37,188 bases of DNA from Sandaracinaceae bacterium (GTDB lineage: Bacteria > Myxococcota_A > Polyangia > Polyangiales > Sandaracinaceae). Positions 16,486 to 36,301 of this stretch are shown piece after piece. A model generated the notes under the pieces. It searched no databases. It saw nothing but the letters and a program-made list of their open reading frames with translations, and was not told where the DNA came from. How positions within the stretch are numbered: the first letter of the stretch is position 1; every line of letters begins with the position of its first letter. The stretch is taken from positions 1-37,188 of the forward strand of contig JAVJQK010000147.1 of the NCBI GenBank assembly GCA_040218145.1. The letters are read 5' to 3'. Position numbers and translations under genes: made by a program.

Positions 16486-16578
16486 CGTAGACGCTCCGGG
16501 CGGAGAATCGAACCCGGACGCGCCGAAGTCGGGGCAGGCGCGGCTGGACACGCCTCGCGCCGATCCTACGCTCGCCCG

Positions 16579-17301
16579 GTGAGCCTCGACGTCGATGCGC
16601 GCGCGCGCGCCCTCTATGGCCAGCCGCTGCAGCCCGCTCACGGGGTCGTGCACGTGGTCGCGGTGGCGCGGGGCGCGGATGGGCGGGGCGACGAGTACGA
16701 GGTGATCCGCATCGGCCCCCACGCGCCGAAGAGCGAGACGGACTTCTTCGCGCTCTCCCTCACGCGGGCCCGGGTCGGCGGCGTGCTGGTGAGCGGCAGC
16801 GTCCTGCGGGCGGAGCCGGAGCTCCGCTACGACCTGCCGGACGCCCTGAAGCGGTGGCGCGCCGCGCAGGGGCAGGACACGCCGCCCGTGGTGCTGGTGC
16901 TGAGCCGTGGCGACCTGCCAGCCGCGCACCCCGTCTGGGAGAGCTGGGCCCGGCCGGTGGTCTTCACCTCGAAGGCCGCCGCCGCGTCGCTCCGTCTGCC
17001 CGCGCGGGTCGAGGTGGTGGGGGTGGACGATCCGAGCCCCCGCGAAGCCGTGGCGTGGCTGCGCGCGCGGGCTGGCTCCGTCTCGATCGAGGCGGGCCCG
17101 TCGATCGCCGTGCCCCTCTACGATCCGCCCCTGGTGATCGACGAGCTCCTGCTGAGCGTGTTCGAGGGCGAGATCGACTCGAGGGCCCGCGGCCGCGCCT
17201 TCCTCGACGCGTCCGCGCTCTCGGACCGGCTGCGGTTGGTGAGCGAGGTGCGGGTCGACGAGCCCAGCGGGCCGTGGCGCTTCACGCGCTGGCTGCGCTG
17301 A
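16579..17301 (+). CDS. RibD C-terminal/dihydrofolate reductase-like protein
   Basis: 240 residues from a GTG at 16579 (VSLDVDARARALYG). The fold pattern is that of the RibD_C/DHFR-like family: an early DFFALSLTRARVGGVLVSGSVLRAEP strand-helix, a PPVVLVLSRGDLP strand, then AGPSIAVPLYDPPLVIDELLLSVF. The last matches the GGPxLxxxLxxxxLVDELxL signature where NADPH and substrate bind. Here the usual Gly-Gly-Pro is Ala-Gly-Pro. Relatives reduce the deaminated riboflavin precursor or unidentified pteridine-like compounds. With no deaminase domain or other riboflavin gene nearby, the substrate is unknown. The gene is divergent from the EGF lipoprotein and convergent with the SRPBCC gene. Confidence 0.75.
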   Translation: MSLDVDARARALYGQPLQPAHGVVHVVAVARGADGRGDEYEVIRIGPHAPKSETDFFALSLTRARVGGVLVSGSVLRAEPELRYDLPDALKRWRAAQGQDTPPVVLVLSRGDLPAAHPVWESWARPVVFTSKAAAASLRLPARVEVVGVDDPSPREAVAWLRARAGSVSIEAGPSIAVPLYDPPLVIDELLLSVFEGEIDSRARGRAFLDASALSDRLRLVSEVRVDEPSGPWRFTRWLR

Positions 17302-20223: not shown

Positions 20224-22482
20224 CTAGAAGCCGATGCGCTTGGCCTCGGCCGGGCGCTCGCGCTGGAGGTCCTCGGCCATCTTGCGATAGGCGGCGTCCA
20301 TCTCCTCGGTGACCGACGCGCGGGTGTGCTTCAGCGCCTCCTCGAAGATCGGCATGGGCACGTCGCTCACCTCGAGGTCGTGGCGGAGCGCGATCAGGCC
20401 CGCGCGGCGCACGAGGTCCTCGAGGTCGGCCCCGGTGTAGCCCTCGGTCCGCTTCGCGAGCGAGGCGAGGTCGACCCCCGCCGCGAGCGGCATGCCCTGC
20501 GTGTGGATCTTCAAGATCTTCAGGCGGCCCCTCTCGTTGGGGACCGGCACGTAGATCAGCTCGTCGAAGCGACCGGGGCGCAGCAGCGCGGGGTCGATCA
20601 AGGTCGGCTGGTTGGTCGCGCCCACCAGCACCACGCCCTTCAGCTCCTCGAGGCCGTCCATCTCCGCGAGGATGGTGTTGACCACCCGCTCGGTGACGGC
20701 CGGCTCGCCGAGCCCGCCGCCGCGACGCGGGGCGAGGGAGTCGATCTCGTCGAGGAAGATCACCGTGGGCGCGACCTGCCGCGCGCGCTGGAAGAGCCGC
20801 GCCACCTGCTTCTCGGACTCGCCATACCACTTGCTCAGGAGATCGCTCGAGCGCATCGAGATGAAGTTCGCCTCGGCCTCCCGCGCGCACGCCTTGGCGA
20901 GGAGCGTCTTGCCCGTGCCGGGCGGGCCGTAGAGCAAGAAGCCCTTCGCGGGGCGGATGCCCATGCGCTCGAACGCGTCCGGCCGCTTCAGGGGCAGCTC
21001 GATGCCCTCGCGGAGCGACTCCTTCGCCTCGTCGAGCCCGCCCACGTCGTCCCACGAGACGTTCGGCGTCTGGATCATGATCTCGCGCAGCGCCGTCGGC
21101 TGCACCCGCCGGATGGCCGCGTCGAAGTCCGAGCCGAGCACGATGAGCTGCTCGAGCGCCTCCTCCGGGATCTCGTCCGCCTCGAGATCGATGGACGGCA
21201 GCACGCGGCGCAGCGACTCGAGCGCCGCCTCCCGGCAGAGGGCCGCGAGGTCCGCGCCGACGAAGCCGTAGGTCATCTGCGCGAGCCGATCGAGCTCCAC
21301 GTCGTCTCCGAGCGGCATGCCGCGGGTGTGGATCTGCAAGACCTCGCGCCGTCCGTCCTTGTCCGGCACGCCGATGGTGAGCTCGCGGTCGAAGCGCCCC
21401 GGCCGGCGCAGCGCCTCGTCGATGGCGTCGGGCCGGTTGGTGGCGCCGATGACCACGACGTTCTGCCGCGGCTTCAGGCCATCCATCAGGGTCAACAGCT
21501 GCGCGACCAGGCGCTTCTCGCCCTCGCCCGTCACCTCGTCTCGCTTCGGCGCGATGGAGTCGATCTCGTCGAAGAAGACGATGCTCGGCGCGTTCTGCTC
21601 CGCCTCCTCGAAGATCTGCCGCAGCCGCTCCTCCGACTCGCCGACGAGCTTGCCCATGATCTCCGGGCCCGCGACGGAGATGAAGTGCGCGTCGGACTCG
21701 TTCGCGACCGCGCGCGCGAGCAGGGTCTTGCCCGTGCCGGGCGGGCCATAGAGCAGCACGCCCTTCGGCGGGTCGATGCCGAGGCGCTGGAAGAGCTCCG
21801 GGTGCTTCAGCGGCAGCTCGATCATCTCGCGCACTTCGTCGAGCGTGTGGCTGATGCCGCCGACGTCGTCGTAGGTGACGTCGAGCACGCGCTCCTCGGG
21901 CTCGGTGTGCTCCGCGCGGAGCTCGATCTCGGTCTCCGGCGTCACCCGCACGATCCCGCTCGGGTTCCCGGAGACCACGACGAGGCGGATCTCCTGCAGC
22001 CCGTAGGCGCGCTGTGCGTAGAGCGCGTTCATGACGTCGTGCGGGAAGGGGCCGCCGTTCATGCCGGGCGCGCGGCGGTAGACGCTCGTGGAGATCACGC
22101 TGCCGGGCGCGAGCGGCCGCCCGATCAAGGTCGGCTTGAGCGCCTCCCCCGGACCGCTCAATCGTACGTTGTCTTGCGCAGGGGCCAGGACGACCTTGCG
22201 CGCCGGCTTGGCCTCGGCCTTGCGCACCGCGACGCGGTCGCTGATGCCCACCCCTGCGTTGTGCCGCTCGAGCCCGTCGAGGCGGATGATGTCGAGGCCC
22301 GCGTCCTCCTCGTAGGGCGGCAGGGCGAGCGCGGCGCTCCGGCGCTTGCCCTCGATCTCGACGACCTCCCCGCCCCGGAGCTCGAGCGCCTCCATGGCGC
22401 TCTTGCTGAGCCGCGCGACGCCCTTGCCCATGTCCTGGTTCGTGGCCGCCGCCACCTGGAGCACGACCTCGTCTTTCGCCAT
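20224..22482 (-). CDS. CDC48/p97/VAT-like double AAA+ ATPase
   Basis: 752 residues from the ATG at 22482 (MAKDEVVLQVAAATNQDMGKG). The N-terminal region (about 1-195) has the double-psi beta-barrel pattern of VAT/p97 (GKGVARLSKSAMEAL, VGISDRVAVRKAEAKPARKV). D1 has Walker A GPPGTGKT at 246-253, Walker B FFDEIDS and arginine fingers in RRPGRFD. D2 has Walker A at 519-526, FLDEIDS and RPGRFDE. All catalytic elements of both rings are intact. The family unfolds or extracts proteins using ATP. The C-terminus ends in RIGF rather than a hydrophobic-Tyr-X tail, so proteasome docking is not indicated. It lies 31 bases after the glucoamylase-like gene on the same strand. Confidence 0.95.
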   Translation of the reverse strand: MAKDEVVLQVAAATNQDMGKGVARLSKSAMEALELRGGEVVEIEGKRRSAALALPPYEEDAGLDIIRLDGLERHNAGVGISDRVAVRKAEAKPARKVVLAPAQDNVRLSGPGEALKPTLIGRPLAPGSVISTSVYRRAPGMNGGPFPHDVMNALYAQRAYGLQEIRLVVVSGNPSGIVRVTPETEIELRAEHTEPEERVLDVTYDDVGGISHTLDEVREMIELPLKHPELFQRLGIDPPKGVLLYGPPGTGKTLLARAVANESDAHFISVAGPEIMGKLVGESEERLRQIFEEAEQNAPSIVFFDEIDSIAPKRDEVTGEGEKRLVAQLLTLMDGLKPRQNVVVIGATNRPDAIDEALRRPGRFDRELTIGVPDKDGRREVLQIHTRGMPLGDDVELDRLAQMTYGFVGADLAALCREAALESLRRVLPSIDLEADEIPEEALEQLIVLGSDFDAAIRRVQPTALREIMIQTPNVSWDDVGGLDEAKESLREGIELPLKRPDAFERMGIRPAKGFLLYGPPGTGKTLLAKACAREAEANFISMRSSDLLSKWYGESEKQVARLFQRARQVAPTVIFLDEIDSLAPRRGGGLGEPAVTERVVNTILAEMDGLEELKGVVLVGATNQPTLIDPALLRPGRFDELIYVPVPNERGRLKILKIHTQGMPLAAGVDLASLAKRTEGYTGADLEDLVRRAGLIALRHDLEVSDVPMPIFEEALKHTRASVTEEMDAAYRKMAEDLQRERPAEAKRIGF

Positions 22483-22513
22483 GAGCGGGAAACAGTGCCC
22501 GAACCGGGGGCTG

Positions 22514-25096
22514 TCAAGACCCCACACGCCTCCGGCAGACGAGCCACGTCAGGAGGATGGCCAGGAGCGCCGGAGCCGCGAGGCGCCTCCCACCGACCGC
22601 GCATCCCCCGGAGACGGGTGGCGTCGCGGGCGCGGGCGGCGCCAGCTCCACCTCCGGGAGCACCGCGTCGTAGGCCATCAGCGCGTCCGGGTCCTCGAGC
22701 GCCATCGCGCTGAGGTAGAAGAGCACGCCCTCCCAGAGGTGCGGGTTCGCCACCCGCTGGCTCGCGACCGGCCGCCCCGCCTCGCTCACCGTGGCCATCG
22801 CCTCGCCGAAGTGCGCCGTCTCGGTGGCGTGGCCCTCGGCGATGAGCTCCACGAGGTCCGACAGCCCCTCGCGTCGGGACGGGTCGCGCCCGTGCGTGAG
22901 ACCGAAGCTCACGGTGTTCTTCATGAAGTACTGGCCGCCCGCGGTCTCGAGCCGGATCTGCGGCCCGACGAAGGAGAGGTCGCTGTCGAGCTGGGCCGCC
23001 ACGCGCGGATCCGTCCACGGCAGGACGCGCATCGGCCAGACGAGCCACGCCGTGGTCCCCGTCGGGCCGCTCTCGTCCGGCGACGCGCGCGCGCCCACGT
23101 CCCGTACGAAGCGGTCGGCCAAAGGATCATGGAGGTGGGTCACGATGCCCTCGCGCAGCTCCCACGCCCGCGCCGCCCAGCGGGCCGCGGCCTCGTCCTC
23201 GCCCAGCAGCGCGGCGGCGCGCGCCGCCATCTCGAGGCCGCCGAACACGGGGACCGCGCCGTTCAACGTCTGGGTGTAGGCGGCGTGGTCGTCCTCCTGC
23301 GCGGGCCAGTGCAGCCCGGTCTCGGGGTCTCGCCAGCGGACCAGCAGCTCCGCGGCCCGCGTGATGGTCTCCCAGCGCTCCCGGAGATACGCGACCGGGT
23401 CGTCGGCCCAGCCGGCGTGCGCGACGAGAGACCAGAGAACAAACGCCGTGTTGTCGATCTCGAAGCGGAAGACCCCGCCCACGAGTCCGTCTGCGTAGTA
23501 GTTCATCTCCCAGGCGTCCTCGGGGTAGGTGCGCGCTCGGCCCCCTCCCGGCGGCGGCGGCGGATCGGGATCGACGAGCAAGGTGGGCCGCACGGGCGCG
23601 TCCCGCTGCCACGACCCGTAGAGCGCGGTGCGCTCGCGCCGGAGCGCCGTCTGCCCGGAGACGTCGAGCGCGACGTCGAAGAACGCTCCGTCGCGCGGCC
23701 AGTCCAGGCCGTAGGGAGGCTGTCGCGAGATCGACGCGACGATGGCGCCGGTGGCCGCGTCCGTGCCGACCCGCAGGTTGACGAGCGAGCGCCGCGCGAC
23801 CGCCACCACGCGCGGAGCCTGCGACTCGGGGAGGCGGAGCCCGGCCAGGAACGCCTCGAGCGCCGCCTCGCTCGCGGCCACGACCTCTTCTCCCGACAGC
23901 TCGCGCCGCGCCGCGCGCGCCTCGTCCAGCGTCGCGCCCGCGCTGAGCACCACGCTCACCGTCGCCGTGTCCCCGTCGAAGCGGAGCGGCGTGCGGAGCG
24001 CCTCGTTCACCTCGCCCGCCGCGACGTCACTCCCGCCGAGCGCGCCGTCTGCCGCGTCCACGAGCGCGTCCTCGGCCTCGTGCGCCCAGCCGTGCGCGTC
24101 GCGGGGCGAGCGCGCGGTGGGATCGCATCGCAGCGCGTCGAGCAGGTCGGGGTCGAGCGGGAGATCGAAGTCGGGCCAGCGTGCGGCGAGGGAGACCACG
24201 TTGTCCACCAGCGCTCCCACGTCGTCGCAGAGCGGCGTGCCGTCGTAGCCGACCTGGTGCTGATCCGGCGGCGGGTCCGTGCCGAGCACCCACGCGACCC
24301 CGCGCCGAGCCCGCTGCCCCTCGAGCAGGGCCCGCAGCGCCGCGTCCGAAGGCTCGCCCTCCTGGAGCAGCTCGGCGAAGGCGCCGTGGTCGACGGTCGG
24401 CGCCCCGAGCAAGTCGGTCGGCTCGTCGTAGATGCCCTGGTCGGACGGGTGCAGGTGCACGACGACGGACGCGTCCGGATCCCAGGCCGCCGCGAAGTCG
24501 TTGCGACCGTCCACCGCCCAGTCCGCCACCGGGAGCTCCGGGATGCGCGAGCTCGGAGGGACCGGCGAGAGGTTGGCGTAGGTGAGCAGCCACGCCGCCT
24601 CGACCGGGCTGTCCGCGGCGCGGGCGATCTGGACCTGCCTGACGAAGACGTCGCGCTCCGGATGCACCGCGTCGATCACCGTCACCGTCAGGCCGAGCGC
24701 CTCCGACCCGTGCACCGACCAGACGTTCGCGCCGTCGCCCGGGCCGTAGCTCTGGTCCGTCTCGAAGTCGCGCAGCCAGTGCACCGAGCGGACGCCCGCC
24801 CGCTCCACGACCAGCCCGAGGAACAGCCCCGCGCCCTCGGAGGCGCCGAGCCGCGGCCGGCTGCGCGCGTCGTAGGCGTTGCTGCTCACGTAGCCGAGCT
24901 GGTCGGAGTAGCTCGGGCTCGGCCAGGTCAGCACGGTGACGTCGCCGTCGGCCGAGACCCCGACGCTGATCCGGCCATGCCCGCAGATCGCGTTCACGTT
25001 CGTGGCCCCGAAGATGTGCTCGATGGCGTCGATGCGGCGGTCCGCGCGGGCAGCGGCGGGCCAGGCGAGGAGGAGCGCGAGGAGAGCGACACGCAT
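22514..25096 (-). CDS. Secreted GH15/glucoamylase-like protein with MYXO-CTERM-like tail
   Basis: 860 residues. The N-terminus is a classic signal peptide (MRVALLALLLAWPAAARA). A large beta-rich N-domain follows, with sugar-enzyme-like stretches such as WLRDFETDQSYGPGDGANVW. The C-terminal half has the alpha/alpha-barrel pattern of glucoamylase-like enzymes (PPYGLDWPRDGAFFDVALD, FEIDNTAFVLWSLVAHAGW, DPETGLHWPAQEDD, ANPHLWEGVLFYLSAMAL). The last 33 residues are Gly-Gly-Cys, a hydrophobic helix and CRRRVGS, which fits the MYXO-CTERM sorting signal that anchors proteins at the myxobacterial surface. Likely hydrolyses an alpha-glucan or related glycoside outside the cell; catalytic acids were not assigned. 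Divergent from a pseudo-receiver gene. Confidence 0.78.
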   Translation of the reverse strand: MRVALLALLLAWPAAARADRRIDAIEHIFGATNVNAICGHGRISVGVSADGDVTVLTWPSPSYSDQLGYVSSNAYDARSRPRLGASEGAGLFLGLVVERAGVRSVHWLRDFETDQSYGPGDGANVWSVHGSEALGLTVTVIDAVHPERDVFVRQVQIARAADSPVEAAWLLTYANLSPVPPSSRIPELPVADWAVDGRNDFAAAWDPDASVVVHLHPSDQGIYDEPTDLLGAPTVDHGAFAELLQEGEPSDAALRALLEGQRARRGVAWVLGTDPPPDQHQVGYDGTPLCDDVGALVDNVVSLAARWPDFDLPLDPDLLDALRCDPTARSPRDAHGWAHEAEDALVDAADGALGGSDVAAGEVNEALRTPLRFDGDTATVSVVLSAGATLDEARAARRELSGEEVVAASEAALEAFLAGLRLPESQAPRVVAVARRSLVNLRVGTDAATGAIVASISRQPPYGLDWPRDGAFFDVALDVSGQTALRRERTALYGSWQRDAPVRPTLLVDPDPPPPPGGGRARTYPEDAWEMNYYADGLVGGVFRFEIDNTAFVLWSLVAHAGWADDPVAYLRERWETITRAAELLVRWRDPETGLHWPAQEDDHAAYTQTLNGAVPVFGGLEMAARAAALLGEDEAAARWAARAWELREGIVTHLHDPLADRFVRDVGARASPDESGPTGTTAWLVWPMRVLPWTDPRVAAQLDSDLSFVGPQIRLETAGGQYFMKNTVSFGLTHGRDPSRREGLSDLVELIAEGHATETAHFGEAMATVSEAGRPVASQRVANPHLWEGVLFYLSAMALEDPDALMAYDAVLPEVELAPPAPATPPVSGGCAVGGRRLAAPALLAILLTWLVCRRRVGS

Positions 25097-25684: not shown

Positions 25685-26536
25685 TCACCCGAGCACGACC
25701 GCGACGGTGCCCGCGATCATGAGGGCGACCGCGACGAGCTTGCTCGGGTGGATCGTCTCCTCGAACGCGATCCGCCCCACCACGACCGAGGAGGTCATGC
25801 CCACCGCGCGCTTGATCGTCTCGACGATGCCGACGAAGAGCAGCTGGATGGCCCACAGCTGGAGCGCGAGCGCGCCCGCCGCGAACGCGACCGAGCCGCC
25901 GAGCGCAGGCCAGGCGCGCCTGGGGACGGAGAGCGGCGCGCGCCGGAGGAGCAGCCACGCCAGGAGCGCCACCGCCACCCCGCCCGTCTGCACGAGCGCG
26001 TGCGCGGGCTTGGACGCGTGTTCGAGCGCGAGCTTGTCGAGGGTGGTGCTGAGCGCCCAGCACGCCGAGACGCCGACCATCATGGCCGAGCCCGCGTCGA
26101 GCCGACGCCAGAGCGGCGCGTCCCCGCGCGCGTGCAGGCTGACCGCGCCGACCACCACCAGCGCGATCCCCGCCCACTGCCAGCGCGACGGCAGCTCGCC
26201 GAGGAGCGGGATGGCGACGAACGCGGCGAAGACGGGCGTGAACGAGAGGAACGGGATCGTCGCGCTCAGGGCCGAGATGTGGATGGCCTTCATGAAGAGC
26301 AGGTTGGCCACCACCTGGAGCCCGAGCGCGCTCAGGCCGGGCGGCCAGTAGCCCGGCTGGAGCTGGGCGTCGAAGGCGAGCGCGACGGCGAAGAACGGGA
26401 CCTGCCCGACGCTCAGCCACATCGCGGCCAGCGCGGGCGGCACGTCCCTGACGAGCGCCTTGCGCGTGGCGTCGAGCCCGGCCCAGCAGGCCGCGCCGCC
26501 GAGGGCCACCGCGAGGCCGAGCGCAGAGAGCGTCAC
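25685..26536 (-). CDS. EamA/DMT-family transporter
   Basis: 283 residues from a GTG at 26536, only 15 bases after the TonB-receptor stop. About ten membrane helices in two EamA halves. The first half ends in a PVFAAFVAIPLLGELPSRWQWAGIALVVVGA helix pair; the second ends in TSSVVVGRIAFEETIHPSKLVAVALMIAGTVAVVLG. These repeats, including the Glu after each eighth-type helix, are typical drug/metabolite exporters. As last gene of the metal-uptake-like operon it could move a siderophore, chelate or metabolite across the inner membrane, but that is inferred only from position. Confidence 0.83.
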   Translation of the reverse strand: MTLSALGLAVALGGAACWAGLDATRKALVRDVPPALAAMWLSVGQVPFFAVALAFDAQLQPGYWPPGLSALGLQVVANLLFMKAIHISALSATIPFLSFTPVFAAFVAIPLLGELPSRWQWAGIALVVVGAVSLHARGDAPLWRRLDAGSAMMVGVSACWALSTTLDKLALEHASKPAHALVQTGGVAVALLAWLLLRRAPLSVPRRAWPALGGSVAFAAGALALQLWAIQLLFVGIVETIKRAVGMTSSVVVGRIAFEETIHPSKLVAVALMIAGTVAVVLG

Positions 26537-26551
26537 GAGCGCTCCATGGGG

Positions 26552-29113
26552 TCAGAACTCGAGCTTCACCCCGCCCTGGATCTGGAACGGGCGGACCGGG
26601 CGCGCGCCGAAGGGCCGGCGGGAGGCGACGGCCTGGCTGAAGGTGAGGTTCTCGCCCCGCACGTAGATCCGGAGGTGCTCCAGCACGCCGAGGTAGAACG
26701 TCGCGTCCAGCAGGAAGACCGCGTCGGTCCGAGGCAGGTCGTCCCCGGGCGCCGCGACCTGCTCCCACATCTCGCTCACCCAGCTCGCGGACACGTTGAG
26801 CCCGATGTCCTCGTGCTCGACCCCCGCCTGGGCGGAGATCTGGTGCTCGGGGATGTACGGGAGGCGGTCGCCGGGCTGCCCACCCGCGTAGAGCGGGCTC
26901 GGCGAGTCACCCACGGCCTCGCGCAGCTCGGTGTAGGTGAAGGTGTAGGTCGCGCGCAGGGGGACGCGCACCTCGTCGAAGCGCAGGCTCGCGCCGAGCC
27001 GCACGTCGAGCCCCGCCACGATGGGGCGGCCGCCGTTCGCTTCGCGGTCGAGCTCCATGTCGGCGCAGCCCGCGGCGAAGGAGCAGCGCTGGAGGAAGTT
27101 GGTGTAGTCGTTGACGAAGCCGGTGATCTGTCCGCCGAGGCCGCTGCCCTCGTGCGACGCCCGCACCCCCGCCTCGTAGAGCACGCTGTCCTCGGGCTGC
27201 ACGCCCTCGGCCTGCCCGGGCGCGACGGGCGCGAAGCCGCGCATCACCCCGCCGAAGACGGCCAGCTCGTCGATGATCTGCCACTCCAGGCCCGCCCCCG
27301 GGAGGACGGCGGCGCGGAACGCGGCGTTCGTCATGCCGCTCTCGCGGTCGTCGTAGCTGGTCCAGATGAGCTCGGTGCGCACGCCGGGCGTGACGGTGAC
27401 CGCGTCCCAGAGCTCCACCGACCACGCGGCGTGCGCGCTCAACGCGAGCGCCTGCGCCTCGGTCCGCAGCAGGGTGTAGCGCTGCTCGGTCACCTCGATG
27501 AGCTCCCCCCCCGCGACCCCGAACGCGCCCTCGGTGTGATGGCGGAACACGTCGTCGTGGTGGAGGCGCGCGCCCACCCGGACGCGGTGCGACAGGGGCC
27601 CGGTCTCGAAGGTGCCGACGCCCTCCGTCTGGACGCCCGTGCTGCCGAAGACGCGGCCGTTGTTGCCGATGAGCACGTAGTCGTTGGACGCGGGGCCGAG
27701 CTCCCCGTCCTCCTCGCCGCGCAGGACCGCGCCCAGCACGGCGTTGGCGCCGCTCGGGTTGAGGAGCACGTCGAACAGCTCGGTGCGCGTCTGGCCGCCG
27801 CCCTCGCGCGGCAGCCCGCCCATCGCGTTGACCTTGAACCAGTTCCGCGTGAGGTCGTGACGGTAGGCCGCGCTGCGCAGCACGAAGCCGTCGCCCACCT
27901 CGAGGGTGTGCCGGAGCTGCACCTGCGTCCGCCACCACTCCATGCGGTCGAGCTGCGAGGCGAAGTAGCGCTGGTAGGGGTCGGCCGCGAAGTCCGTATC
28001 GGTCAGGCCGAGGTAACTCTCGTTGCTCCCCTCCGCGCTGAAGCCGAGCCGCAGCTCGAGCCGCTGGTAGGCGTCGTCCCCGACCGCCCCGCGCAGCTCG
28101 CCGCGCAGCACGAGCTCGCCTCGGTCGAAGCCCGTGTTGGGCGACGCCTCGAACCCCTGCAGCGACTTGAAGCCGTCGCTCCGGAGGAACACGCCCTCCG
28201 CGACGAACCCGCCCCAGTCGTTGCTCGCCCCGGCCCACGCGTGCGCGCGTCCGTAGAGATAGGTGCCGAGCGCGAGGTCCACGCCTCCGCTCGCTTCACG
28301 GGGGATCTCCCGGTTGTGGAGATCGATCGCGCCGCCGACCGTGGTCGGGCCGAAGGGGATGGTGGCCGCGCCCATGTAGACGTCCACGCCGGTCATGCGG
28401 AGCATGAGCGGGAAGTAGTAGGCGGCGGGGGCGGCGTACGGCGCGGGCCCGAAAAGGACCCCGTCCTCCATGAGCGTGATGCGACTCGAGCGCTCGCTGC
28501 TCACGCCCCGGAGGCCGATGTTGGGTCGCAGCCCGAAGCCGTCCTCCTGCCGCACGTAGGCGCCGGGGACCTGCTGCACGACCGCGTCCGGGTTGTCGTA
28601 GGAGAAGCGCTCCAGCTCCTCCTCTCCGAGGCGCTGCACCGCGCCGCCCGTGGGCCGCTGCTCGGTCTCGTCGATCGCGGGCGCGGTCACGACCACGTCC
28701 GGGACGGTGAGGTCCTCCTCGGACTCGACCACGTCGTCGAGGTCGGGATCCACGAGCACGTCGTCGTCGGAGAGGATCAGATCGTCGGGGTATTCGGCCT
28801 CCTCGGGCTCGGGCTCGGGGGCCGGCGCGGGCTCGACGTCCGACTCCTCTTCTACCTCCGGAGCCGCGTCGGCCGGAGGCGGGCCAGCGTCGCGCGCGTC
28901 GGTGCCGCCAGCATCGGGGCCGCCGCCATCGGGCGCGCCAGCGTCAGGGCCACCTGCGGCGGGCGGACCGGCGTCGGGCGGACCGGCGTCAGGGCGGCCG
29001 GCGTCCTGGGCGGCGGCGGGAGAGGCGAGCGCGAGCAACAGCAGGATCGGAGCGAGGGTGCGCACGGGGGCGCAACATGCCCGCGCGGGGGGCGGACGCA
29101 AGCCATTCCTCAT
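26552..29113 (-). CDS. TonB-dependent outer-membrane receptor (FecA-like plug and barrel)
   Basis: 853 residues. The ATG at 29113 overlaps the previous stop by 4 bases (ATGA); a GTG at 29065 is an alternative. A signal peptide ends in SPAAAQ near residue 36. Next is a roughly 100-residue Pro/Ala/Gly/Asp spacer, then a TonB-box-like DVVVTA (139-144). The plug domain reads NPDAVVQQVPGAYVRQEDGFGLRPNIGLRG and DGVLFGPAPYAAPAAYYFP, closest in pattern to ferric-citrate-type receptors. The 22-strand-type barrel ends in GVKLEF with the terminal Phe. There is no N-terminal STN signalling domain, so it is a transporter rather than a FecA-style transcription sensor. Substrate likely an iron or metal chelate, supported by the imelysin neighbours. 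Confidence 0.92.
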   Translation of the reverse strand: MRNGLRPPPARACCAPVRTLAPILLLLALASPAAAQDAGRPDAGPPDAGPPAAGGPDAGAPDGGGPDAGGTDARDAGPPPADAAPEVEEESDVEPAPAPEPEPEEAEYPDDLILSDDDVLVDPDLDDVVESEEDLTVPDVVVTAPAIDETEQRPTGGAVQRLGEEELERFSYDNPDAVVQQVPGAYVRQEDGFGLRPNIGLRGVSSERSSRITLMEDGVLFGPAPYAAPAAYYFPLMLRMTGVDVYMGAATIPFGPTTVGGAIDLHNREIPREASGGVDLALGTYLYGRAHAWAGASNDWGGFVAEGVFLRSDGFKSLQGFEASPNTGFDRGELVLRGELRGAVGDDAYQRLELRLGFSAEGSNESYLGLTDTDFAADPYQRYFASQLDRMEWWRTQVQLRHTLEVGDGFVLRSAAYRHDLTRNWFKVNAMGGLPREGGGQTRTELFDVLLNPSGANAVLGAVLRGEEDGELGPASNDYVLIGNNGRVFGSTGVQTEGVGTFETGPLSHRVRVGARLHHDDVFRHHTEGAFGVAGGELIEVTEQRYTLLRTEAQALALSAHAAWSVELWDAVTVTPGVRTELIWTSYDDRESGMTNAAFRAAVLPGAGLEWQIIDELAVFGGVMRGFAPVAPGQAEGVQPEDSVLYEAGVRASHEGSGLGGQITGFVNDYTNFLQRCSFAAGCADMELDREANGGRPIVAGLDVRLGASLRFDEVRVPLRATYTFTYTELREAVGDSPSPLYAGGQPGDRLPYIPEHQISAQAGVEHEDIGLNVSASWVSEMWEQVAAPGDDLPRTDAVFLLDATFYLGVLEHLRIYVRGENLTFSQAVASRRPFGARPVRPFQIQGGVKLEF

Positions 29114-30477
29114 CGGCGCACCATCGCGGCGCCGCGCGGGCGCATGCGGAGGGGCGCGGTGTCGGGCCGCGGGAGGATCCAGTCGGCGGGCGCGAAGCCG
29201 TCCTCCACCGCCGCGAGGTCGACGTTCGGGTCGATCAGCCGCGCCGAGGGTCGGCCGTTGAGCGACGCCCAGGCGTCGGCCCGGACCTCCACCCGCGCGT
29301 GGCCGCGCGCGCGCAGGTCGTCGCGGATGTGATGGGCGAGCTGCAGGATGAGGTCGGGTTGCCCGGCGAACTCCGCCTCCTGTCGCCCGTCGAGGTAGCG
29401 GCTCGGGCGCACCTCGCGCTCACGCGCCTCGCCGTCGAGTCGCACGCGGTAGGTGACGTCGCCGTTCTTCTCCCGCACCTTCACGCGCCAGCTCCACCGC
29501 ATGCCCTGCTCGTGCCACAGCACGTCTCCGCCGTAGAGGTGCCCACGCAGCGGCGCCGCGATCATCACCAGCGCCCAGAGGCCGAGCGCCACCACGCCGG
29601 CCCGACCGACGCGTGATCGATCGTCCGGCTCGATCTCCACCCGTCGGAGGCGCGCATGCAGCTTGCGTGGCCAGTCCGGCGCGAAGAAGAGCGTCGCGGC
29701 CGCGGTCATGATCACCGGGAAGATGCCGATGAAGAAGAAGTACGCGGTGAGGCCGTGGAAGACGCAGACGGCGGCGAAGGCGAACGGCCGTGTCCGGCGC
29801 CAGCTCAGCCAGAAGACGATGGTCAGGTCGTAGAGGAAGCCCGCCCAGCTCATCGCCAGGGCCACCCAAGGCTCGCCCAGGAGCGGCCCGATGAGCGGCG
29901 TCTCGGTGCGCGCGTGCAGCCAGATGCCGAGCGGCTGCCCGTGAAGGAGCCAGTCCGGCCCGATCTTGGCGACGGCGGCGAAGACGTAGACGAGCCCGAC
30001 CTGGAAGCGGAGCAGGTAGAGCACCCACGCCGGGATCGTCTCGCGACGGAGCGCGGGCCGACGGCGCGCGTCGAGCGACCACGTGCCGTGCAGCGGCAGC
30101 ACGCAGAAGAGCGCCGCGAGGAGCGTGACCAGCCAGTAGTGGTTCAGGTAATTGGTCACGTCGATCAGGTGCAGGTAGGTGAAGATCACCAGCACCAGCG
30201 CGGACGCGATCCGGGAGAAGAGGCCGAGGGCCACGCAGAGCCCCGCGAGCCCGAGCAGCGCGAACGCCGCGCTCATCCACGGCTCGGGCAGCGGCCGCAC
30301 CCAGTCGAAGCCGAGGTAGTGGAAGTGGAACGTCGGCTCGACGTAGAAGCGCGCGATCCAGCCGCTCCAGAAGTAGCGGATCACGCCGCCCGCGATCACG
30401 AGGCCGAACATGACGCGAAACGCAGCCGCGGAGGCGGCGTCGCGGGGCTCGTTCAGGCGCGCTCGCAGCCCGCCCAT
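29110..30477 (-). CDS. HTTM / vitamin K-dependent gamma-carboxylase-like membrane protein
   Basis: 455 residues. The N-terminal 290 hold many membrane helices with family landmarks: FRVMFGLVIAGGVIRYFWSGW, VEPTFHFHYLGFDWVRPLP, LNHYWLVTLLAALFCVLP. The segment FAAVAKIGPDWLLHG places Lys171 where human gamma-glutamyl carboxylase has its catalytic base. A soluble C-terminal part (WHEQGMRWSWRVKV, then DLILQLAHHIRDDL) matches bacterial carboxylase homologues. Human VKGC carboxylates Glu using reduced vitamin K; bacterial relatives have largely unknown substrates. It sits 4 bases after the imelysin gene and overlaps the TonB-receptor gene, so it belongs to the same operon. Confidence 0.87.
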   Translation of the reverse strand: MGGLRARLNEPRDAASAAAFRVMFGLVIAGGVIRYFWSGWIARFYVEPTFHFHYLGFDWVRPLPEPWMSAAFALLGLAGLCVALGLFSRIASALVLVIFTYLHLIDVTNYLNHYWLVTLLAALFCVLPLHGTWSLDARRRPALRRETIPAWVLYLLRFQVGLVYVFAAVAKIGPDWLLHGQPLGIWLHARTETPLIGPLLGEPWVALAMSWAGFLYDLTIVFWLSWRRTRPFAFAAVCVFHGLTAYFFFIGIFPVIMTAAATLFFAPDWPRKLHARLRRVEIEPDDRSRVGRAGVVALGLWALVMIAAPLRGHLYGGDVLWHEQGMRWSWRVKVREKNGDVTYRVRLDGEAREREVRPSRYLDGRQEAEFAGQPDLILQLAHHIRDDLRARGHARVEVRADAWASLNGRPSARLIDPNVDLAAVEDGFAPADWILPRPDTAPLRMRPRGAAMVRR

Positions 30478-30481
30478 GTCC

Positions 30482-31720
30482 TCAGTCGTTGTCGCCCGGC
30501 GTGCAGGACTGGACGTCGATGTCGAGGGCGGTCACCACGTCCACCTTGAACAGGCGCTGCGCGGTGCCGAGCGCGGCGTAGGCGGCCATGACCTCGGGCG
30601 CGTCCGCCTCGATGGCCTCGCGGAGCGTCCCCGGGATCGCCTCGACCGCCTCCGTCGCGGCGGTGAGGGCGGCGCCGAGGTCCGCCACGAGCGCGTCGGC
30701 CCCGATGGCGAGGAGCAGGTCGTCGATCCCGAGCCCCATCGAGTCGGGGGACTCGCCGTGGAAGAGCCGCCCGAACGCCTCGAGGTTGGCGAGGACGGCC
30801 TCCTTGTCGTGGTTGGCGAACGGCGTCTCGAGCGAGTCGATGCAGCTCGCGTCCATGCAGGTGATCCCCGCCGGGTCGCCCACCTTCATGTCTCGCGTCG
30901 CGTTGTCCAGGTAGAGCATCGCGGTGGCGAGGTCGTCGAGGGCGCGCTGCGAGGTGTCATAGGCGGAGCCATCGGTCCCCGCGCCGCGCCAGTCGGCGAG
31001 GAAGTCGCCCCCGCTCGGCTCCCACGCGTCCCTCAGGCCGCGCGCCTCCTCGAGCACGAGCTGCGCGGCGGTGTGGGCGTAGGTCGCGCGGCGCTGACGG
31101 ATGTTCGCCCGCTCGGCCTCCCAGGTCCCCGCGTCGTTGATCGGCGAGAGCGCCCCGCAGGTGTTGTCGTCGGTCTCCACGAAGAGCAGGTACTCCATCG
31201 CGTCGAGCCCGCGCACGTTCACCAGCTCCGCGTCGAGGAGCGCAGGGTCCGCGTGCGTCTCGGCGACCGTCTCCTGATCGATGCGACAGGTGCTCGTGAG
31301 GCTCCACGAGTAGATCTCGTCCCGGAGCTCCATCGCCCCCACCACGCCGCAGCCGGTGCCGGCCATGCCCGCCGGGCCGACCTGCATGAGCTCCGCCTGC
31401 TGCCACGAGGCCGCCGCGTCGCGCCACGCGGCCTGCGCGGCGGCGCGGTTCTCGTCCGAGGGATCGGCCGCGTACGCGCCGGCGGCGGCCTCGAGCGCCT
31501 CCGCCTGCGCCGCGAACTCCCGCAGGGTCGGGAGGATGACGTTCTCTCCGAGCGCCCCCAGCACCTCGCGCCGCAGCGCCGACGGATCCCCCGAGCCGCC
31601 TTCGCCCGGATCGGACGCGTCGAGTGGCGCCTCCGTGCCGTCACAGCCCACGAAGCACGTGAGCAAGGACAGGAGCAGCGCGAGCGAGTGGCGCGCGGTC
31701 GGCGAGGTGCGGGACGTCAT
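30482..31720 (-). CDS. Imelysin-like lipoprotein (M75 family-related)
   Basis: 412 residues with a lipoprotein signal (LALLLSLLTCFVGC). The body is helical and Ala-rich with family landmarks: LREFAAQAEALEAAAGAY, AWRDAAASWQQAELMQVGPAG, VRGLDAMEYLLFVE, TSQRALDDLATAMLYLDN and LGTAQRLFKVDVVTALDI. The last two thirds match the imelysin/insulin-cleaving-peptidase-like fold used in periplasmic iron handling. The usual GxHxxE motif reads GLDAME, so His is replaced by Asp; the protein is more likely an iron or ligand-binding component than a peptidase. It lies 4 bases from each neighbour, between the DUF4856-like and HTTM genes. Confidence 0.85.
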   Translation of the reverse strand: MTSRTSPTARHSLALLLSLLTCFVGCDGTEAPLDASDPGEGGSGDPSALRREVLGALGENVILPTLREFAAQAEALEAAAGAYAADPSDENRAAAQAAWRDAAASWQQAELMQVGPAGMAGTGCGVVGAMELRDEIYSWSLTSTCRIDQETVAETHADPALLDAELVNVRGLDAMEYLLFVETDDNTCGALSPINDAGTWEAERANIRQRRATYAHTAAQLVLEEARGLRDAWEPSGGDFLADWRGAGTDGSAYDTSQRALDDLATAMLYLDNATRDMKVGDPAGITCMDASCIDSLETPFANHDKEAVLANLEAFGRLFHGESPDSMGLGIDDLLLAIGADALVADLGAALTAATEAVEAIPGTLREAIEADAPEVMAAYAALGTAQRLFKVDVVTALDIDVQSCTPGDND

Positions 31721-31724
31721 GGGA

Positions 31725-33248
31725 TCACCAGCCCCCGTTGCCGTCGTCGTCGCCGAGGTTGGCGGCGTCGAAGCCGTAGGCCGCGCCGAGGAGCGCGCGC
31801 GCCGTGCGGAGGTTCTCGCGATACTCGTCCGCGGCGAGCGGCCCCGCGGCCGGGAGCACCGGCGCGTCCCCCATGAGGGTGTGGAGCTGCGTGAACTGCT
31901 CGCGGGTCAGGGGCGAGCGCGGGTTGAACTGGAACATCAGCGCGAAGCCCTTCATCTCCGACCAGGCCTTGGCGTGATCGAGGAAGCGGTCGTGGTCGTA
32001 GGCGGGGGTCCCGAAGTCGCCCATCACCTGCAGGGTGTCGTTGATGTAGTGCACGACCGTCGCCGCGATCGCCTGCTCCCAGGCCTGGATGGCGAGGTCA
32101 CGCTGCTCGGTCAGCGCGGCGCGCTCGTCGACGTCCAGCTCTCCGTGGTGCGCGATCATCGCGCGCCCGGTGCGGAAGGCGAGGAAGGCCTGGCCCATGA
32201 AGTCGGTGGCCACGGCGGCGCCGTCGTCCCGCTTCGCGGCGTTGACCGACGCGCCCCAGTTGTACTCGGTGCCGAGATCGATGGCGCCGTCGCCGCTGAC
32301 GTCCATGTAACGCGGGCCGGACGAGAGGCTCTCCGCGGTCCACGAGCCGTAGGCCTCGGCGGCGCCGAAGTAGCCCCACGCCTCGTCCCACACGTGCTCG
32401 AGCGCGGTGTACGGCGATCCGTCGGACGCGGGCATGGTGTTGTCGACGAGCAGGCCCTTGCCGTCCACGTCGTCGTCCGTGTAGTCGTCCGCGCCCTGCG
32501 AGAAGGTTAGCGCGCCGAGGAGGAACTTCTCGGTGAGCTGCTGCAGATCCAGGCCGCTCGCGGTCACGTGGACCGGCAGCGGCTGGAGGGCCGGGCTGAG
32601 CCGGTCGACGCCGGCCGCGCGATCGATCGCGTTCTGCTCGAGGGTCTCGAAGAAGGCGCGCACGAGGTCGGTCGGGCTGTCGACCCCGCCGCCGTTGGCG
32701 GCGATGGCCGGGTCGCTCCAGCCCACGAACTCGGTCGACCAGTCGCGGTGGTCGGTCGAGGTGTCGTTGCCCGCCAGCTTGTCGATGAGGTTGGCGCTCG
32801 AGATGTCGCCGTAGCTCGTCTGGAGCGGCGCGGGATCCGTGCTGAGCCGGAACGGGTCCGCGGCGCGGTCGGCGCCGTCGAGGCTGAAGAAGTACTCGAG
32901 GCGCGCGGTCACGTCACCGTCGGCCGCGGGCGAGAAGCCCCCGTCGACCTCGTCCGTGAGGCCGCCGATGTAGTCCTTCAGGTCGGAGATGAGCAGGTGC
33001 CGCGCGGTCTGACCGGTGTGCACGATGCTGCTCTCGCCGGCGTTGAAGCGGCTCTCGAAGGTGTAGGTGTCGGGCACCACCAGCTCGCCCGGGCCCGCGT
33101 CGGGGCCGGAGTCCGCGGGCGGGACCTCGGCGTCCTCCGTCATGACGCCCGTGTCGGCGACGCCCGAGTCCGCGGGATCCACCTCGCCGTCGTCGCAGGC
33201 CACCAGGGAGAGCGCGCTCAGGGCGCAGAGGACGTTCAGGGTACGCAT
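31725..33248 (-). CDS. DUF4856-like lipoprotein, first gene of the uptake operon
   Basis: 507 residues from the ATG at 33248, chosen over the frame start at 33326 because it begins a lipoprotein signal (MRTLNVLCALSALSLVAC). An Asp/Pro-rich spacer leads to the domain, starting TYTFESRFNAGESSIVHTGQ, then TARHLLISDLKDYIGGL. Other stretches are EHVWDEAWGYFGAAEAYG, FRTGRAMIAHHGELDVDERA and HYINDTLQVMGDFG. I recognise this as the DUF4856 family, which in Bacteroidetes also precedes imelysin, HTTM and TonB-receptor genes. A periplasmic or surface iron-handling role is inferred from the operon. Transcription likely starts near the Fur-like site at 33272-33286. Confidence 0.78.
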   Translation of the reverse strand: MRTLNVLCALSALSLVACDDGEVDPADSGVADTGVMTEDAEVPPADSGPDAGPGELVVPDTYTFESRFNAGESSIVHTGQTARHLLISDLKDYIGGLTDEVDGGFSPAADGDVTARLEYFFSLDGADRAADPFRLSTDPAPLQTSYGDISSANLIDKLAGNDTSTDHRDWSTEFVGWSDPAIAANGGGVDSPTDLVRAFFETLEQNAIDRAAGVDRLSPALQPLPVHVTASGLDLQQLTEKFLLGALTFSQGADDYTDDDVDGKGLLVDNTMPASDGSPYTALEHVWDEAWGYFGAAEAYGSWTAESLSSGPRYMDVSGDGAIDLGTEYNWGASVNAAKRDDGAAVATDFMGQAFLAFRTGRAMIAHHGELDVDERAALTEQRDLAIQAWEQAIAATVVHYINDTLQVMGDFGTPAYDHDRFLDHAKAWSEMKGFALMFQFNPRSPLTREQFTQLHTLMGDAPVLPAAGPLAADEYRENLRTARALLGAAYGFDAANLGDDDGNGGW

Positions 33249-33271
33249 GCGTAGGAACCTCGAAGTAAGGA

Positions 33272-33286
33272 TGACTCTGATTCTCA
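33272..33286 (-). promoter_or_regulatory. Fur-box-like operator before the DUF4856-imelysin-HTTM-TonB operon
   Basis: Read on the minus strand, TGAGAAT-C-AGAGTCA has the 7-1-7 layout of a Fur box (consensus TGATAAT-N-ATTATCA). The left half matches at 6 of 7 positions and the right at 4 of 7. It is centred about 31 bases upstream of the first ATG, in a short AT-rich island of an otherwise GC-rich region. A second inverted repeat TTCTC-ACTTTC-GAGAA overlaps it at 33281-33296. Iron-dependent repression is inferred. Confidence 0.45.
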
Positions 33287-33336
33287 CTTTCGAGAACGGG
33301 GTACGCCGCGTTCGGGGACATGTCAAGGCGGTGGAC

Positions 33337-34366: not shown

Positions 34367-35608
34367 TCAGGGTCTCGCGTGGGGCCGCACGCGCTCGAGG
34401 TGTCGGCCGTTCGGGTAGTCGCGGAGATAGGCGTCGGCGGCGGCCCCGGCCGCGCGTGTGTCTCCCGCCGCGACGTGCGCCTCCACCAGCCGCGCGGCCG
34501 CGTCCTCACGGAGGCGCGGTGGCAGGCGCAGATCGAGCGCGAGAGAGAAGGCCCGCGCCGCCCGCGCCGGCCGCCGCAGCGCGTCCAGCTCGAGCCGCCC
34601 GAGCGTGAACGCGGCCAGCCCGGCCGCCGGATCCCCCCGCAGCGCGCTCGCCCGCTCCAGGATCACCGCCGCCTCCTGGTCCCTTCCTTCTCTCCGCGCC
34701 TCGTCCGCCGCCGCCATCGCAGCCTCGGCCGAGCCAAGCGACCCAGCCTCTGCCCCTGCCCCTGCCCCTGCCCCGGAAGCGGGAGCGGAAGCGGGAGCGG
34801 AGGCGGAGGCGGAAGCGGAAGCGGACGCGGAATCGGAGGCGGACGCGGAAGCGGAAGCGGAAGCGGAAGCTGAGGCGGAAGCGGAAGCGGGAGCGGAATC
34901 GGAGGCGGAATCGGACGCGGAATCGGAAGCGGAAGCGGAAGCGGAAGCGGAAGCGGAATCGGACGCGGAAGCGGAAGCGGAATCGGACGCGGAAGCGGCA
35001 GCGGAATCGGAAGCGGACTCGGAATCGGAAGACTCCGAACCGCCCCCCGCGAGTCGCGCCCCGACGTCGACGCTGACCGACTCGCCAGCCCGGACTACGT
35101 GTCGCCCTTCGGGCTCCGTCACCTCGACCTGCCCACGCCGCACCCGCACCGTCACCGCGGTCGCGTCACGCTCGACCTCGAAGATCGTCCCCACCACACG
35201 CACCTCGACCTCGCCCGCGCGTACCCGCCAGGTGCGCGGCCCACCGGGCGTCACCGAGAAGCGAGCGCGCCCCGCGTCGAGGCCCCACGTGATGCCCTCG
35301 GGTTCGTTCCGGAGCAGCGTCAGTCGCGCGCCGACCGAAGCCGTCACGACGGAGCCGTCGTCGAGCGTGATCGCGCCACCGAGCTCCGCGGGGATCGGGC
35401 CTCCTCCTTCGAGGGCGAGCGGCGCGAGGGGGCGCGGCCACAGCCAGAAGAGGAGGACCGCCGCCGCCGCGAGGGCGCCCGTCGCCACCATCGGCGTCAA
35501 CCGTCGACGCGGTCGGCGACCCTCGATGCCGCGCCAGAGGCGCTGCACCCGCGCCTCGTCGACCGTGTCCTTCAGGGTCTCGCCCACCGGATCGGGGAGC
35601 CGGCTCAT
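34367..35608 (-). CDS. FecR-domain membrane protein with Ser/Ala/Asp linker and helical C-terminus
   Basis: 413 residues from the ATG at 35608, overlapping the sigma-factor stop by 4 bases. A short cytoplasmic N-terminus (about 1-37) precedes one membrane helix (about 38-58). A FecR-type beta domain follows at about 76-180 (LDDGSVVTASVGARLTLL, VEVRVVGTIFEVE, RGQVEV, VRAGESVSV). Residues 191-280 are almost only Ser, Ala and Asp. The last 120 residues look like tetratricopeptide helices (EAAVILERASALRGDPAAG, AYLRDYPNGRH). Such proteins act as membrane anti-sigma or regulator partners. The cytoplasmic part here is small, so direct sigma binding is possible but unproven. Confidence 0.8.
   Translation of the reverse strand: MSRLPDPVGETLKDTVDEARVQRLWRGIEGRRPRRRLTPMVATGALAAAAVLLFWLWPRPLAPLALEGGGPIPAELGGAITLDDGSVVTASVGARLTLLRNEPEGITWGLDAGRARFSVTPGGPRTWRVRAGEVEVRVVGTIFEVERDATAVTVRVRRGQVEVTEPEGRHVVRAGESVSVDVGARLAGGGSESSDSESASDSAAASASDSASASASDSASASASASASDSASDSASDSAPASASASASASASASASASDSASASASASASAPASAPASGAGAGAGAEAGSLGSAEAAMAAADEARREGRDQEAAVILERASALRGDPAAGLAAFTLGRLELDALRRPARAARAFSLALDLRLPPRLREDAAARLVEAHVAAGDTRAAGAAADAYLRDYPNGRHLERVRPHARP
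34769..35038 (-). repeat. Imperfect hexanucleotide tandem repeats encoding the Ser/Ala/Asp linker
   Basis: About 270 bases built mostly from GGAAGC, GGAGGC and GGACGC-like hexamers (plus-strand spelling), coding for residues 191-280 of the FecR-domain protein. The unit size matches the perfect GGCGGA tract at the left edge of the window, but this one has diverged. Being in-frame multiples of three, copy-number changes would alter linker length without breaking the gene. Confidence 0.85.
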
Positions 35609-36231
35609 CGGACACCTCCCACGTGCGCGTCGACCCGCTCCCGGGCCGCCTTGATCCGGCGCTTCGCGGTCGCGAGCGAGACGTCGAGCGCCGCGGCGAC
35701 CTCGGTCAGCTCCCAGCCCTCGACGAAGCGGAGCATCCAGGCGATGCGGAGCTGGGGGTCGAGCTCGCCGAGCACGCGATCGAGCTTGGCCAGCTCGGCC
35801 CGGACCTCGGGCGACGCGTCGTCGGTCGCCAGCGCCTCGAGGCTCGCGTCGTCCTCCTCGCGATCGAGCGCGAGCCGGCGGAGCCACCGCCGCTTGCGCA
35901 GCCGGCCCCGCACCTCGTTGACCGCGATGCGGCAGAGCCAGCCTCTGAACGCGGCGGGCTCGCGCAGGGATCCGAGCCGCTCCATCGCGAGCAAGAAGGT
36001 CTGCTGCACGACGTCGTCCGCCTCCGCGGTGCGGCCCACCATGCGGGTCACGGCGTTGGTCACGCGCCGCACGTGCCGCCGGTAGAGCGCCTCGAAGGCC
36101 CAGCGATCCCCCTCGAGGGCGCGCACCACGAGCGACCCGTCGTCGCTCTCCTCCGCGGACGGGATCGCGCGCACGACCGGTTCTCGAATCGCCAGTGCCA
36201 GCATGCGGAGGGGATGCGCCTCGTCGATCAT
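35605..36231 (-). CDS. ECF-type RNA polymerase sigma factor
   Basis: 208 residues from the ATG at 36231; a GTG at 36240 in frame is also possible. Region 2 is visible (AFEALYRRHVRRVTNAVTRM, ADDVVQQTFLLAMERLGSLR, PAAFRGWLCRIAVNEVRGRL). Region 4 carries the helix-turn-helix (LDPQLRIAWMLRFVEGWELT, EVAAALDVSLATAKRRIKAARERV). Regions 1.1 and 3 are absent, as in extracytoplasmic-function factors. Its stop overlaps the FecR gene start (ATGA), so it is the first gene of a coupled three-gene operon and probably regulated by it. No recognisable matching promoter was found near the operon. Confidence 0.93.
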   Translation of the reverse strand: MIDEAHPLRMLALAIREPVVRAIPSAEESDDGSLVVRALEGDRWAFEALYRRHVRRVTNAVTRMVGRTAEADDVVQQTFLLAMERLGSLREPAAFRGWLCRIAVNEVRGRLRKRRWLRRLALDREEDDASLEALATDDASPEVRAELAKLDRVLGELDPQLRIAWMLRFVEGWELTEVAAALDVSLATAKRRIKAARERVDAHVGGVR

Positions 36232-36301
36232 ACGGCTCACGAAAAGAGAAACGCCGCGAGCCGGTCTCCAGAGGAGCGGCGCGCGGCGTGTCTCGCGAAG
36301 G

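Follow-up and report, generated by a model that had tools for sequence, protein, structure and literature searches.

A predicted Fur-controlled iron-uptake operon of a Sandaracinaceae bacterium contains a vitamin K carboxylase homologue that is replaced by FA_hydroxylase in related operons

The window, a stretch of 37,188 nucleotides of DNA from a Sandaracinaceae bacterium, carries an operon that is best read as a predicted Fur-controlled operon for the uptake of an iron chelate. Sequence comparison suggests that in this Fur-repressed iron(-chelate) acquisition operon a membrane enzyme of the vitamin K carboxylase (VKGC) family would act, with quinol and O2, on an acceptor other than a Gla-domain protein, a reading to which we give a probability of about 0.45. 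We also found that unrelated O2-dependent membrane enzymes swap one-for-one in the same slot of this operon, which is a new observation.

Operon organisation and the Fur-like site

The features of the operon are as follows.

33272..33286, minus strand: Fur-like operator TGAGAATCAGAGTCA, 10/14 to TGATAATNATTATCA, lying 38 bases ahead of the first ATG
31725..33248, minus strand: DUF4856 lipoprotein, 507 aa (Pfam PF16148, 45 bits, cut-off 22.3, E 7e-12)
30482..31720, minus strand: imelysin lipoprotein (PF09375, Peptidase_M75/imelysin, 106 bits, E 3e-30)
29110..30477, minus strand: VKGC-family HTTM membrane enzyme, 455 aa (PF05090 and PF22777; match to human GGCX)
26552..29113, minus strand: TonB-dependent receptor, 853 aa (PF00593 barrel, 97 bits, and PF07715 Plug, 38 bits)
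25685..26536, minus strand: EamA-family transporter (PF00892, 81 bits)

The ORF calls confirmed the five minus-strand genes described in the sequence-only reading (DUF4856 lipoprotein, imelysin lipoprotein, HTTM protein, TonB receptor and EamA) as well as their junctions of 4, 4, -4 and 15 bases, in gene order. Terminator-like sites were absent from the coding strand within the operon, and a sigma-70 promoter search gave no match. The operon had been called a complete uptake system, which did not hold because no inner-membrane permease is encoded in it.

The four-gene core DUF4856-imelysin-VKGC-TonB was found, always in this single order, in 28 further distinct loci, mostly of Myxococcota and from many families, which supports the gene order given in the sequence-only reading. 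The EamA gene is co-directional with the operon, and it had been proposed as the last gene of the system; we rejected it as a component, since the only other locus where it adjoins the operon is L032, which belongs to this same species and is 99% identical. The upstream ECF sigma/FecR genes were likewise rejected as part of the system, a FecR-like neighbour being found only in L058 and a weak sigma match in L072.

The operator TGAGAATCAGAGTCA scored 10/14 against the 7-1-7 Fur consensus TGATAATNATTATCA, a score reached by 0/60 shuffles of its own upstream region. Across 49 upstream regions of the family, 59% had a Fur-like box scoring at least 11/14, vs 0.6% of the shuffles, and the perfect Fur-type sequence TGATAATCATTATCA was present in three of them; the Fur-like site said to open the operon was thus borne out by box conservation throughout the family. 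A counterpart is found in Riemerella anatipestifer, where RAYM_09794 (hypothetical), RAYM_09789 (imelysin), RAYM_09784 (annotated as 'vitamin K-dependent gamma-carboxylase') and RAYM_09779 (TonB receptor) are consecutive and all appear in Table 4 of iron- and Fur-regulated genes, being up under iron restriction and in the fur mutant with modest ratios (PMC5609570). The resemblance lies in this run of annotated products; the organism belongs to the Bacteroidota and the comparison is one of annotations in that paper, which leaves the carboxylase itself undiscussed (PMC5609570). This table was the only literature that we found linking imelysin with HTTM or a carboxylase. Together, the conserved boxes and the Riemerella counterpart support the iron control of Fur type and the occurrence of the same order in Bacteroidota, both of which had been put forward from the sequence alone.

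Lipoproteins, receptor and the VKGC homologue

The DUF4856 lipoprotein has the lipobox LVAC at C18 and a conserved C-terminal Trp. Its AF2 model (pLDDT 85.8) gave no PDB match above common helical arrangements with Foldseek and VIA-align 2. The imelysin lipoprotein has the lipobox FVGC with cysteine C26, and its AF2 model (pLDDT 87.9; tail 407-412, ending in DND, under 50) showed the two four-helix-bundle imelysin fold, with Foldseek matches to 4ecg (E 7e-9), to ICMP and to 3pf0 (E 7e-7). The motif GLDAME at 171-176 corresponds to GxxxxE with the His lost, and no His is found there, which places this protein in the His-less IPPA (GxxxxE) family. All 61 slot imelysins end in D-x-D; nevertheless, this Asp-x-Asp tail was rejected as a VKGC-specific tag, because imelysins beside DUF1513 in P. 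aeruginosa and in the same genome also have it. The TonB receptor carries an acidic (Glu/Asp-rich) N-terminal extension, and its plug is most like that of FecA (PDB FecA, E 7e-13).

The HTTM protein contains both domains of human gamma-glutamyl carboxylase (GGCX), the vitamin K-dependent enzyme of blood clotting, HTTM at 9-269 (273 bits) and VKGC_lumenal_dom at 295-438 (136 bits) in Pfam, so that its kinship to vitamin K carboxylase, already proposed, proved stronger than had been known; it also matched the human GGCX PDB chains with E 7e-37. Its K171 corresponds to the catalytic K218 of GGCX and is 100% conserved, and the residue-by-residue comparison, in which the roles of the GGCX residues were taken from PMC12589487, showed that K218, N159, H160, D222, W223, F286, F294, F299 and G259 are all kept. 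The equivalents of the vitamin-K pocket in the two operon types described below (A and B) are conserved at 100% for W223, F286, F299 and G259 and at 98-100% for F294. In contrast, only N159 and H160 are retained among the residues of the Glu/Gla-domain pocket (N159, H160, Y395, R436 and M401); in type A, R436 is replaced by E (91%), Y395 by M (95%) and M401 by V (100%). The HTTM protein further differs from GGCX in lacking the C99-C450 disulphide (F/H at these positions in type A), in having Y425 (propeptide) replaced and Ala at K217, and in lacking the long C-terminal part (455 vs 758 residues). H160 is invariant and is important for Glu carboxylation in GGCX, so that a carboxyl-bearing acceptor, even a protein, would be possible.

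Leptospira has another bacterial member of the VKGC family (PMC4555120). No co-occurrence was detected between VKGC and VKOR, the epoxide-recycling partner in animals, which was found in 46 of 68 VKGC genomes vs 148 of 216 others (Fisher p 0.88). The Leptospira homologue reportedly shows epoxidase activity, with its carboxylase activity altered.

Operon types and replacement of the VKGC by FA_hydroxylase

A survey of 284 Myxococcota genomes gave 91 matches to the VKGC lumenal domain, of which 26 lie no more than 6 kb from DUF4856 (type A) and 24 equally close to a di-haem oxidoreductase. None is near both, so that 50 of the 91 adjoin one of two imelysin operon markers. The second kind of operon (type B) has the order imelysin, di-haem oxidoreductase, imelysin, VKGC. 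In a tree, the VKGCs of types A and B form one group (54 rows, SH-aLRT 99), and most orphan copies fall outside it; neither this grouping of the imelysin-linked VKGCs nor the second operon type had been noted before. Among the Bacteroidota of the plasmid collection, Persicobacter (L084) has the type B order and the other VKGC copies are orphan. Orphan copies were seen next to formate dehydrogenase (L069) and alone (L085). While such copies could be taken to favour the view that an unrelated membrane gene came to lie inside an iron operon by chance, this is contradicted by the order found in the 28 further loci and by the share of VKGC matches beside imelysin operon markers, and its probability appears negligible.

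The neighbours of VKGC in type B, two imelysins and a di-haem oxidoreductase, together with the known EfeB-type redox partners of imelysins (PMC3143127), could point to a quinol-linked ferric reductase or iron-redox role, in which electrons from menaquinol would pass to imelysin-held iron, as the di-haem oxidoreductases of PA4370-type clusters may do. This seems very unlikely, because VKGC chemistry oxygenates quinol and does not transfer electrons, the FA_hydroxylase that replaces it has no known quinol site, and the HTTM protein showed no metal or haem ligands of its own.

The window operon resembles the PA4370-PA4373-type cluster of Pseudomonas (ICMP, di-haem oxidoreductase, GxxxxE imelysin and DUF1513) in its His-less imelysin with a D-x-D tail and in its predicted Fur control and role in iron uptake (PMC3143127). 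However, it lacks the ICMP imelysin and the di-haem oxidoreductase, both of which L151 and the type B loci possess, as well as DUF1513, and has DUF4856, VKGC and a TonB receptor instead. L151 is a separate PA4370-type cluster in the same genome. With EfeUOB the operon shares an imelysin-domain iron protein, the EfeO and EfeM structures matching the imelysin model weakly, but it has neither the EfeU permease nor EfeB.

In 21 DUF4856-imelysin operons (13 + 8 loci), FA_hydroxylase, a diiron membrane enzyme with its His boxes intact, replaces VKGC; the two enzymes were never found together, and the tree of DUF4856 and TonB implied at least two to three exchanges, two being the lower figure. Neighbourhoods lacking the HTTM gene, which the sequence-only reading had named as evidence against itself, thus exist at these 21 loci, but there the slot is filled by an O2-dependent membrane enzyme instead. 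Pairs of DUF4856 and TonB also exist with neither imelysin nor slot enzyme (L093 and L095), suggesting that the last two were gained or lost jointly.

This replacement bears on the idea that VKGC carboxylates protein, which the sequence-only reading had raised for a lipoprotein. Glu (or Asp) residues of the imelysin, of the DUF4856 protein or of the acidic receptor N-terminus would then become metal ligands of the Gla kind. The full GGCX domain set with the K218, N159 and H160 equivalents, the Glu/Asp-rich extension of the receptor and the invariant, disordered D-x-D C-terminus of the imelysins are in favour of this idea. Nevertheless, when the conserved Glu columns of the operon-encoded lipoproteins and receptor were compared between VKGC and FA_hydroxylase operons, those of both lipoproteins were kept equally, no well-conserved lipoprotein Glu tracked the presence of VKGC, and the sole such column was position 784 of the receptor, in the C-terminal barrel. 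The Glu content of the linkers and the receptor N-terminus differed little (9.5 Glu per 70 residues of the latter in VKGC loci vs 7.8 in FA_hydroxylase loci). As Y395, R436, M401 and Y425 are not retained either, and the D-x-D tail is found too on imelysins adjoining DUF1513, Gla-type modification of the lipoproteins was not supported, and protein gamma-carboxylation in general seems rather unlikely, although it could still involve sites that are not conserved or substrates encoded elsewhere.

Proposed function of the slot enzyme

The uptake machinery could also depend on a modified lipid or on menaquinone epoxide supplied by the slot enzyme, which itself would touch neither the iron ligand nor a lipoprotein. 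Lipids are the classical substrates of FA_hydroxylases, quinone epoxide is still formed when VKGC is uncoupled from carboxylation, as is known for these families, and the epoxidation residues are kept better than the acceptor residues. However, the His-less imelysin is strictly adjacent in two operon types and with both versions of the enzyme, which argues for a step shared with imelysin, and we consider such a role of low probability.

From these comparisons, the slot enzyme more probably acts together with imelysin on the incoming ligand than in the making of Gla. In the acquisition operon that we propose, the core would consist of a FecA-like TonB receptor, the periplasmic DUF4856 and His-less imelysin lipoproteins, and the VKGC enzyme in the inner membrane. 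At the periplasmic face, VKGC would draw on menaquinol and O2 to generate the strong base typical of its family, which would deprotonate, and perhaps carboxylate, an acceptor other than a Gla-domain protein, most likely a small ligand imported by the receptor and held by imelysin. Such a modification may help the release or re-chelation of iron, and in operons with FA_hydroxylase that enzyme would oxidise the same acceptor to equivalent effect. The missing permease gene, the modest Riemerella ratios, the invariant H160 and the lack of association with VKOR weigh against this reading.

A more specific proposal, which we put forward as a long shot, is that VKGC and FA_hydroxylase are interchangeable because both would convert a simple carboxylate to a chelating group, bearing a second carboxyl (malonate type) in one case and an alpha-hydroxyl in the other, on the flexible Asp-x-Asp C-terminus of imelysin or on an imported chelator. 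If true, bacteria would have their own version of Gla chemistry for iron uptake, driven by quinol or based on a diiron enzyme.

A bacterial VKGC homologue is now tied to a predicted iron-responsive operon, to a specific imelysin partner and to a natural replacement experiment with FA_hydroxylase, which, by taking the exact place of VKGC, makes the job of the bacterial enzyme testable. If its acceptor is not a protein Glu, the view of what the VKGC family evolved for would change.

Operon organisation and Fur-like sites

Open reading frames and Pfam domains bore out exactly the five-gene layout proposed in the sequence-only reading, with minus-strand genes for a DUF4856 lipoprotein, an imelysin lipoprotein, an HTTM protein, a TonB receptor and EamA (33248-25685). 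The HTTM protein (VKGC, 30477-29110), described there as carboxylase-like, was indeed related to the carboxylase and was more than HTTM-like: Pfam recognised PF05090 (273 bits), which is the transmembrane domain, as well as PF22777 (136 bits), the lumenal domain of vitamin K carboxylase, and solved chains of human GGCX were matched at E 7e-37. The Fur-like site said to open the operon was also present:

33286-33272, Fur-like site at the operon start, TGAGAATCAGAGTCA

Among 49 DUF4856 upstream regions, 59% had a site matching 11 or more of the 14 Fur positions, vs 0.6% of shuffles, and in three regions the box was perfect. The identical four-gene order DUF4856, imelysin, VKGC and receptor lies within the Fur- and iron-regulated genes of Riemerella anatipestifer (PMC5609570 Table 4), where one gene is annotated as vitamin K-dependent gamma-carboxylase; that paper treats the receptor in its discussion and leaves the carboxylase undiscussed. 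From the upstream boxes and the Riemerella data we infer Fur-type regulation of the operon.

Just upstream, also on the minus strand, an ECF sigma factor (35608-36240) and then a FecR-domain protein (~34376-35617) are encoded; of the relatives, only the close one L058 had FecR in the corresponding position. The operon's receptor has a FecA-like plug, and Pfam detected no signalling domain in it.

A conserved operon in which FA_hydroxylase replaces VKGC

The 31 relatives of the HTTM protein found by scanning genome contigs were compared together with loci from Myxococcota genomes. The four-gene order (type A) occurred in 28 distinct loci besides the window; EamA, earlier counted as the last operon gene, was, among the loci compared, present only in the same species (L032). 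A contig labelled Candidatus Binatia (L061) was close to an unclassified bacterium MAG contig (L041) and grouped among Myxococcota operons, so that it may be misbinned.

DUF4856 was also found in genomes or loci without an adjoining VKGC. In 13 complete DUF4856 operons of this kind, as well as in eight further loci, the slot between imelysin and receptor was held by FA_hydroxylase (PF04116), a diiron membrane enzyme unrelated to VKGC, with its histidine boxes intact; none of the loci compared had both enzymes. The exchange amounted to three changes on the DUF4856 and receptor tree, two of them forced by strongly supported branches. In L093 and L095 DUF4856 adjoins the receptor and both imelysin and slot enzyme are absent, indicating that these two are gained or lost as a pair.

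All imelysins adjoining a slot enzyme (61/61) had Asp-x-Asp at the very last residue, vs none of nine GxHxxE imelysins of the type B clusters described below. In the AlphaFold model (pLDDT 88) this tail, residues 407-412, was disordered. Because it is shared by imelysins with DUF1513 partners, the tail is a property of the His-less (GxxxxE) imelysin family. DUF1513 takes the place of VKGC beside the His-less imelysin in Pseudomonas, and also partners one in the window's own genome, where a classical cluster of ICMP, di-haem oxidoreductase, DUF1513 and His-less imelysin (G000:C98, L151:2566-7704) has the imelysin after DUF1513, with the C-terminus NDGD.

Type B clusters, ordered GxHxxE imelysin, di-haem oxidoreductase (PF06537), His-less imelysin and VKGC, were found in many Myxococcota and on one Persicobacter plasmid (Bacteroidota, L084). 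Among 91 VKGC lumenal-domain matches in 284 genomes, 26 were near DUF4856, 24 near the di-haem oxidoreductase and none near both. Types A and B formed one supported set in the VKGC tree (54 rows, SH-aLRT 99), separate from most orphan copies and including two other rows, L066 (at a contig end) and L038; the deepest part of the tree is unsure because of long branches. The second, orphan copy of the window's genome (G000:C67:525-962, L063), which adjoins a proton-pumping pyrophosphatase-like gene, fell outside the imelysin-linked group. Other orphans adjoin formate dehydrogenase (L069:6463-10649), a small membrane protein (L079:5296-7103) and a DUF393 protein (L083:8473-10341), neighbours which suggest further roles of the family.

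VKGC residues and possible substrates

Residues were compared with the GGCX structure paper (PMC12589487), in which K218 is the base activating vitamin K hydroquinone, and Y395, R436 and M401 bind the substrate Glu or its Gla domain. K218, N159, H160, W223, F286, F299 and G259 were common to GGCX and all imelysin-linked VKGCs, whereas the latter lacked both the Y425 propeptide contact and the disulphide between C99 and C450, and type A had M, E and V at 395, 436 and 401 (orphan copies H, K and M). The retention of the first set together with the changed pocket suggests that quinol oxidation is probably intact and that the acceptor is probably other than a Gla-domain protein.

It had been proposed that a lipoprotein receives a Gla-like modification, in which case a Glu should be conserved in VKGC loci and under no such constraint in loci with FA_hydroxylase in the slot. 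No highly conserved Glu column tracked VKGC in the imelysins (39 vs 21) or DUF4856 proteins (32 vs 21). A few weakly conserved Glu columns (50-56%) dropped in the FA_hydroxylase set, and the window protein is non-Glu there. This pattern argues against Gla in either lipoprotein, although non-conserved positions could be modified. In the receptor barrel, one Glu column (784) did track VKGC.

The DUF4856 protein (31725-33248) ends in a conserved Trp and gave a confident helical model (pLDDT 86), for which the PDB offered nothing better than generic helical bundles. Some 12 kb away from the VKGC gene, and not evidently linked to it, is the gene (14989-16929, minus strand) for a lipoprotein-like secreted protein that has roughly six EGF repeats of the calcium-binding kind (EGF_CA, cEGF), the domain accompanying Gla domains in clotting factors. 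Elsewhere in the window (20230-22530, minus strand) is a double AAA ATPase of the CDC48/p97 type, which includes a CDC48 N-domain and is of a kind uncommon among bacteria.

A proposed ligand-modifying uptake operon

Already known were VKGC homologues in bacteria, operons that combine imelysins with redox partners and, as an annotation in Riemerella, the four-gene order; in the open-access literature, to which the search was limited, no description of the VKGC-imelysin connection or of the FA_hydroxylase exchange was found. The reading we favour, with acceptor and reaction as its conjectural parts, is a ligand-modifying uptake operon: under Fur control, the receptor with its FecA-like plug would import an iron chelate, the DUF4856 and imelysin lipoproteins would handle it in the periplasm, and an exchangeable O2-dependent membrane enzyme would modify the ligand, with a partner protein or a lipid as less probable targets.
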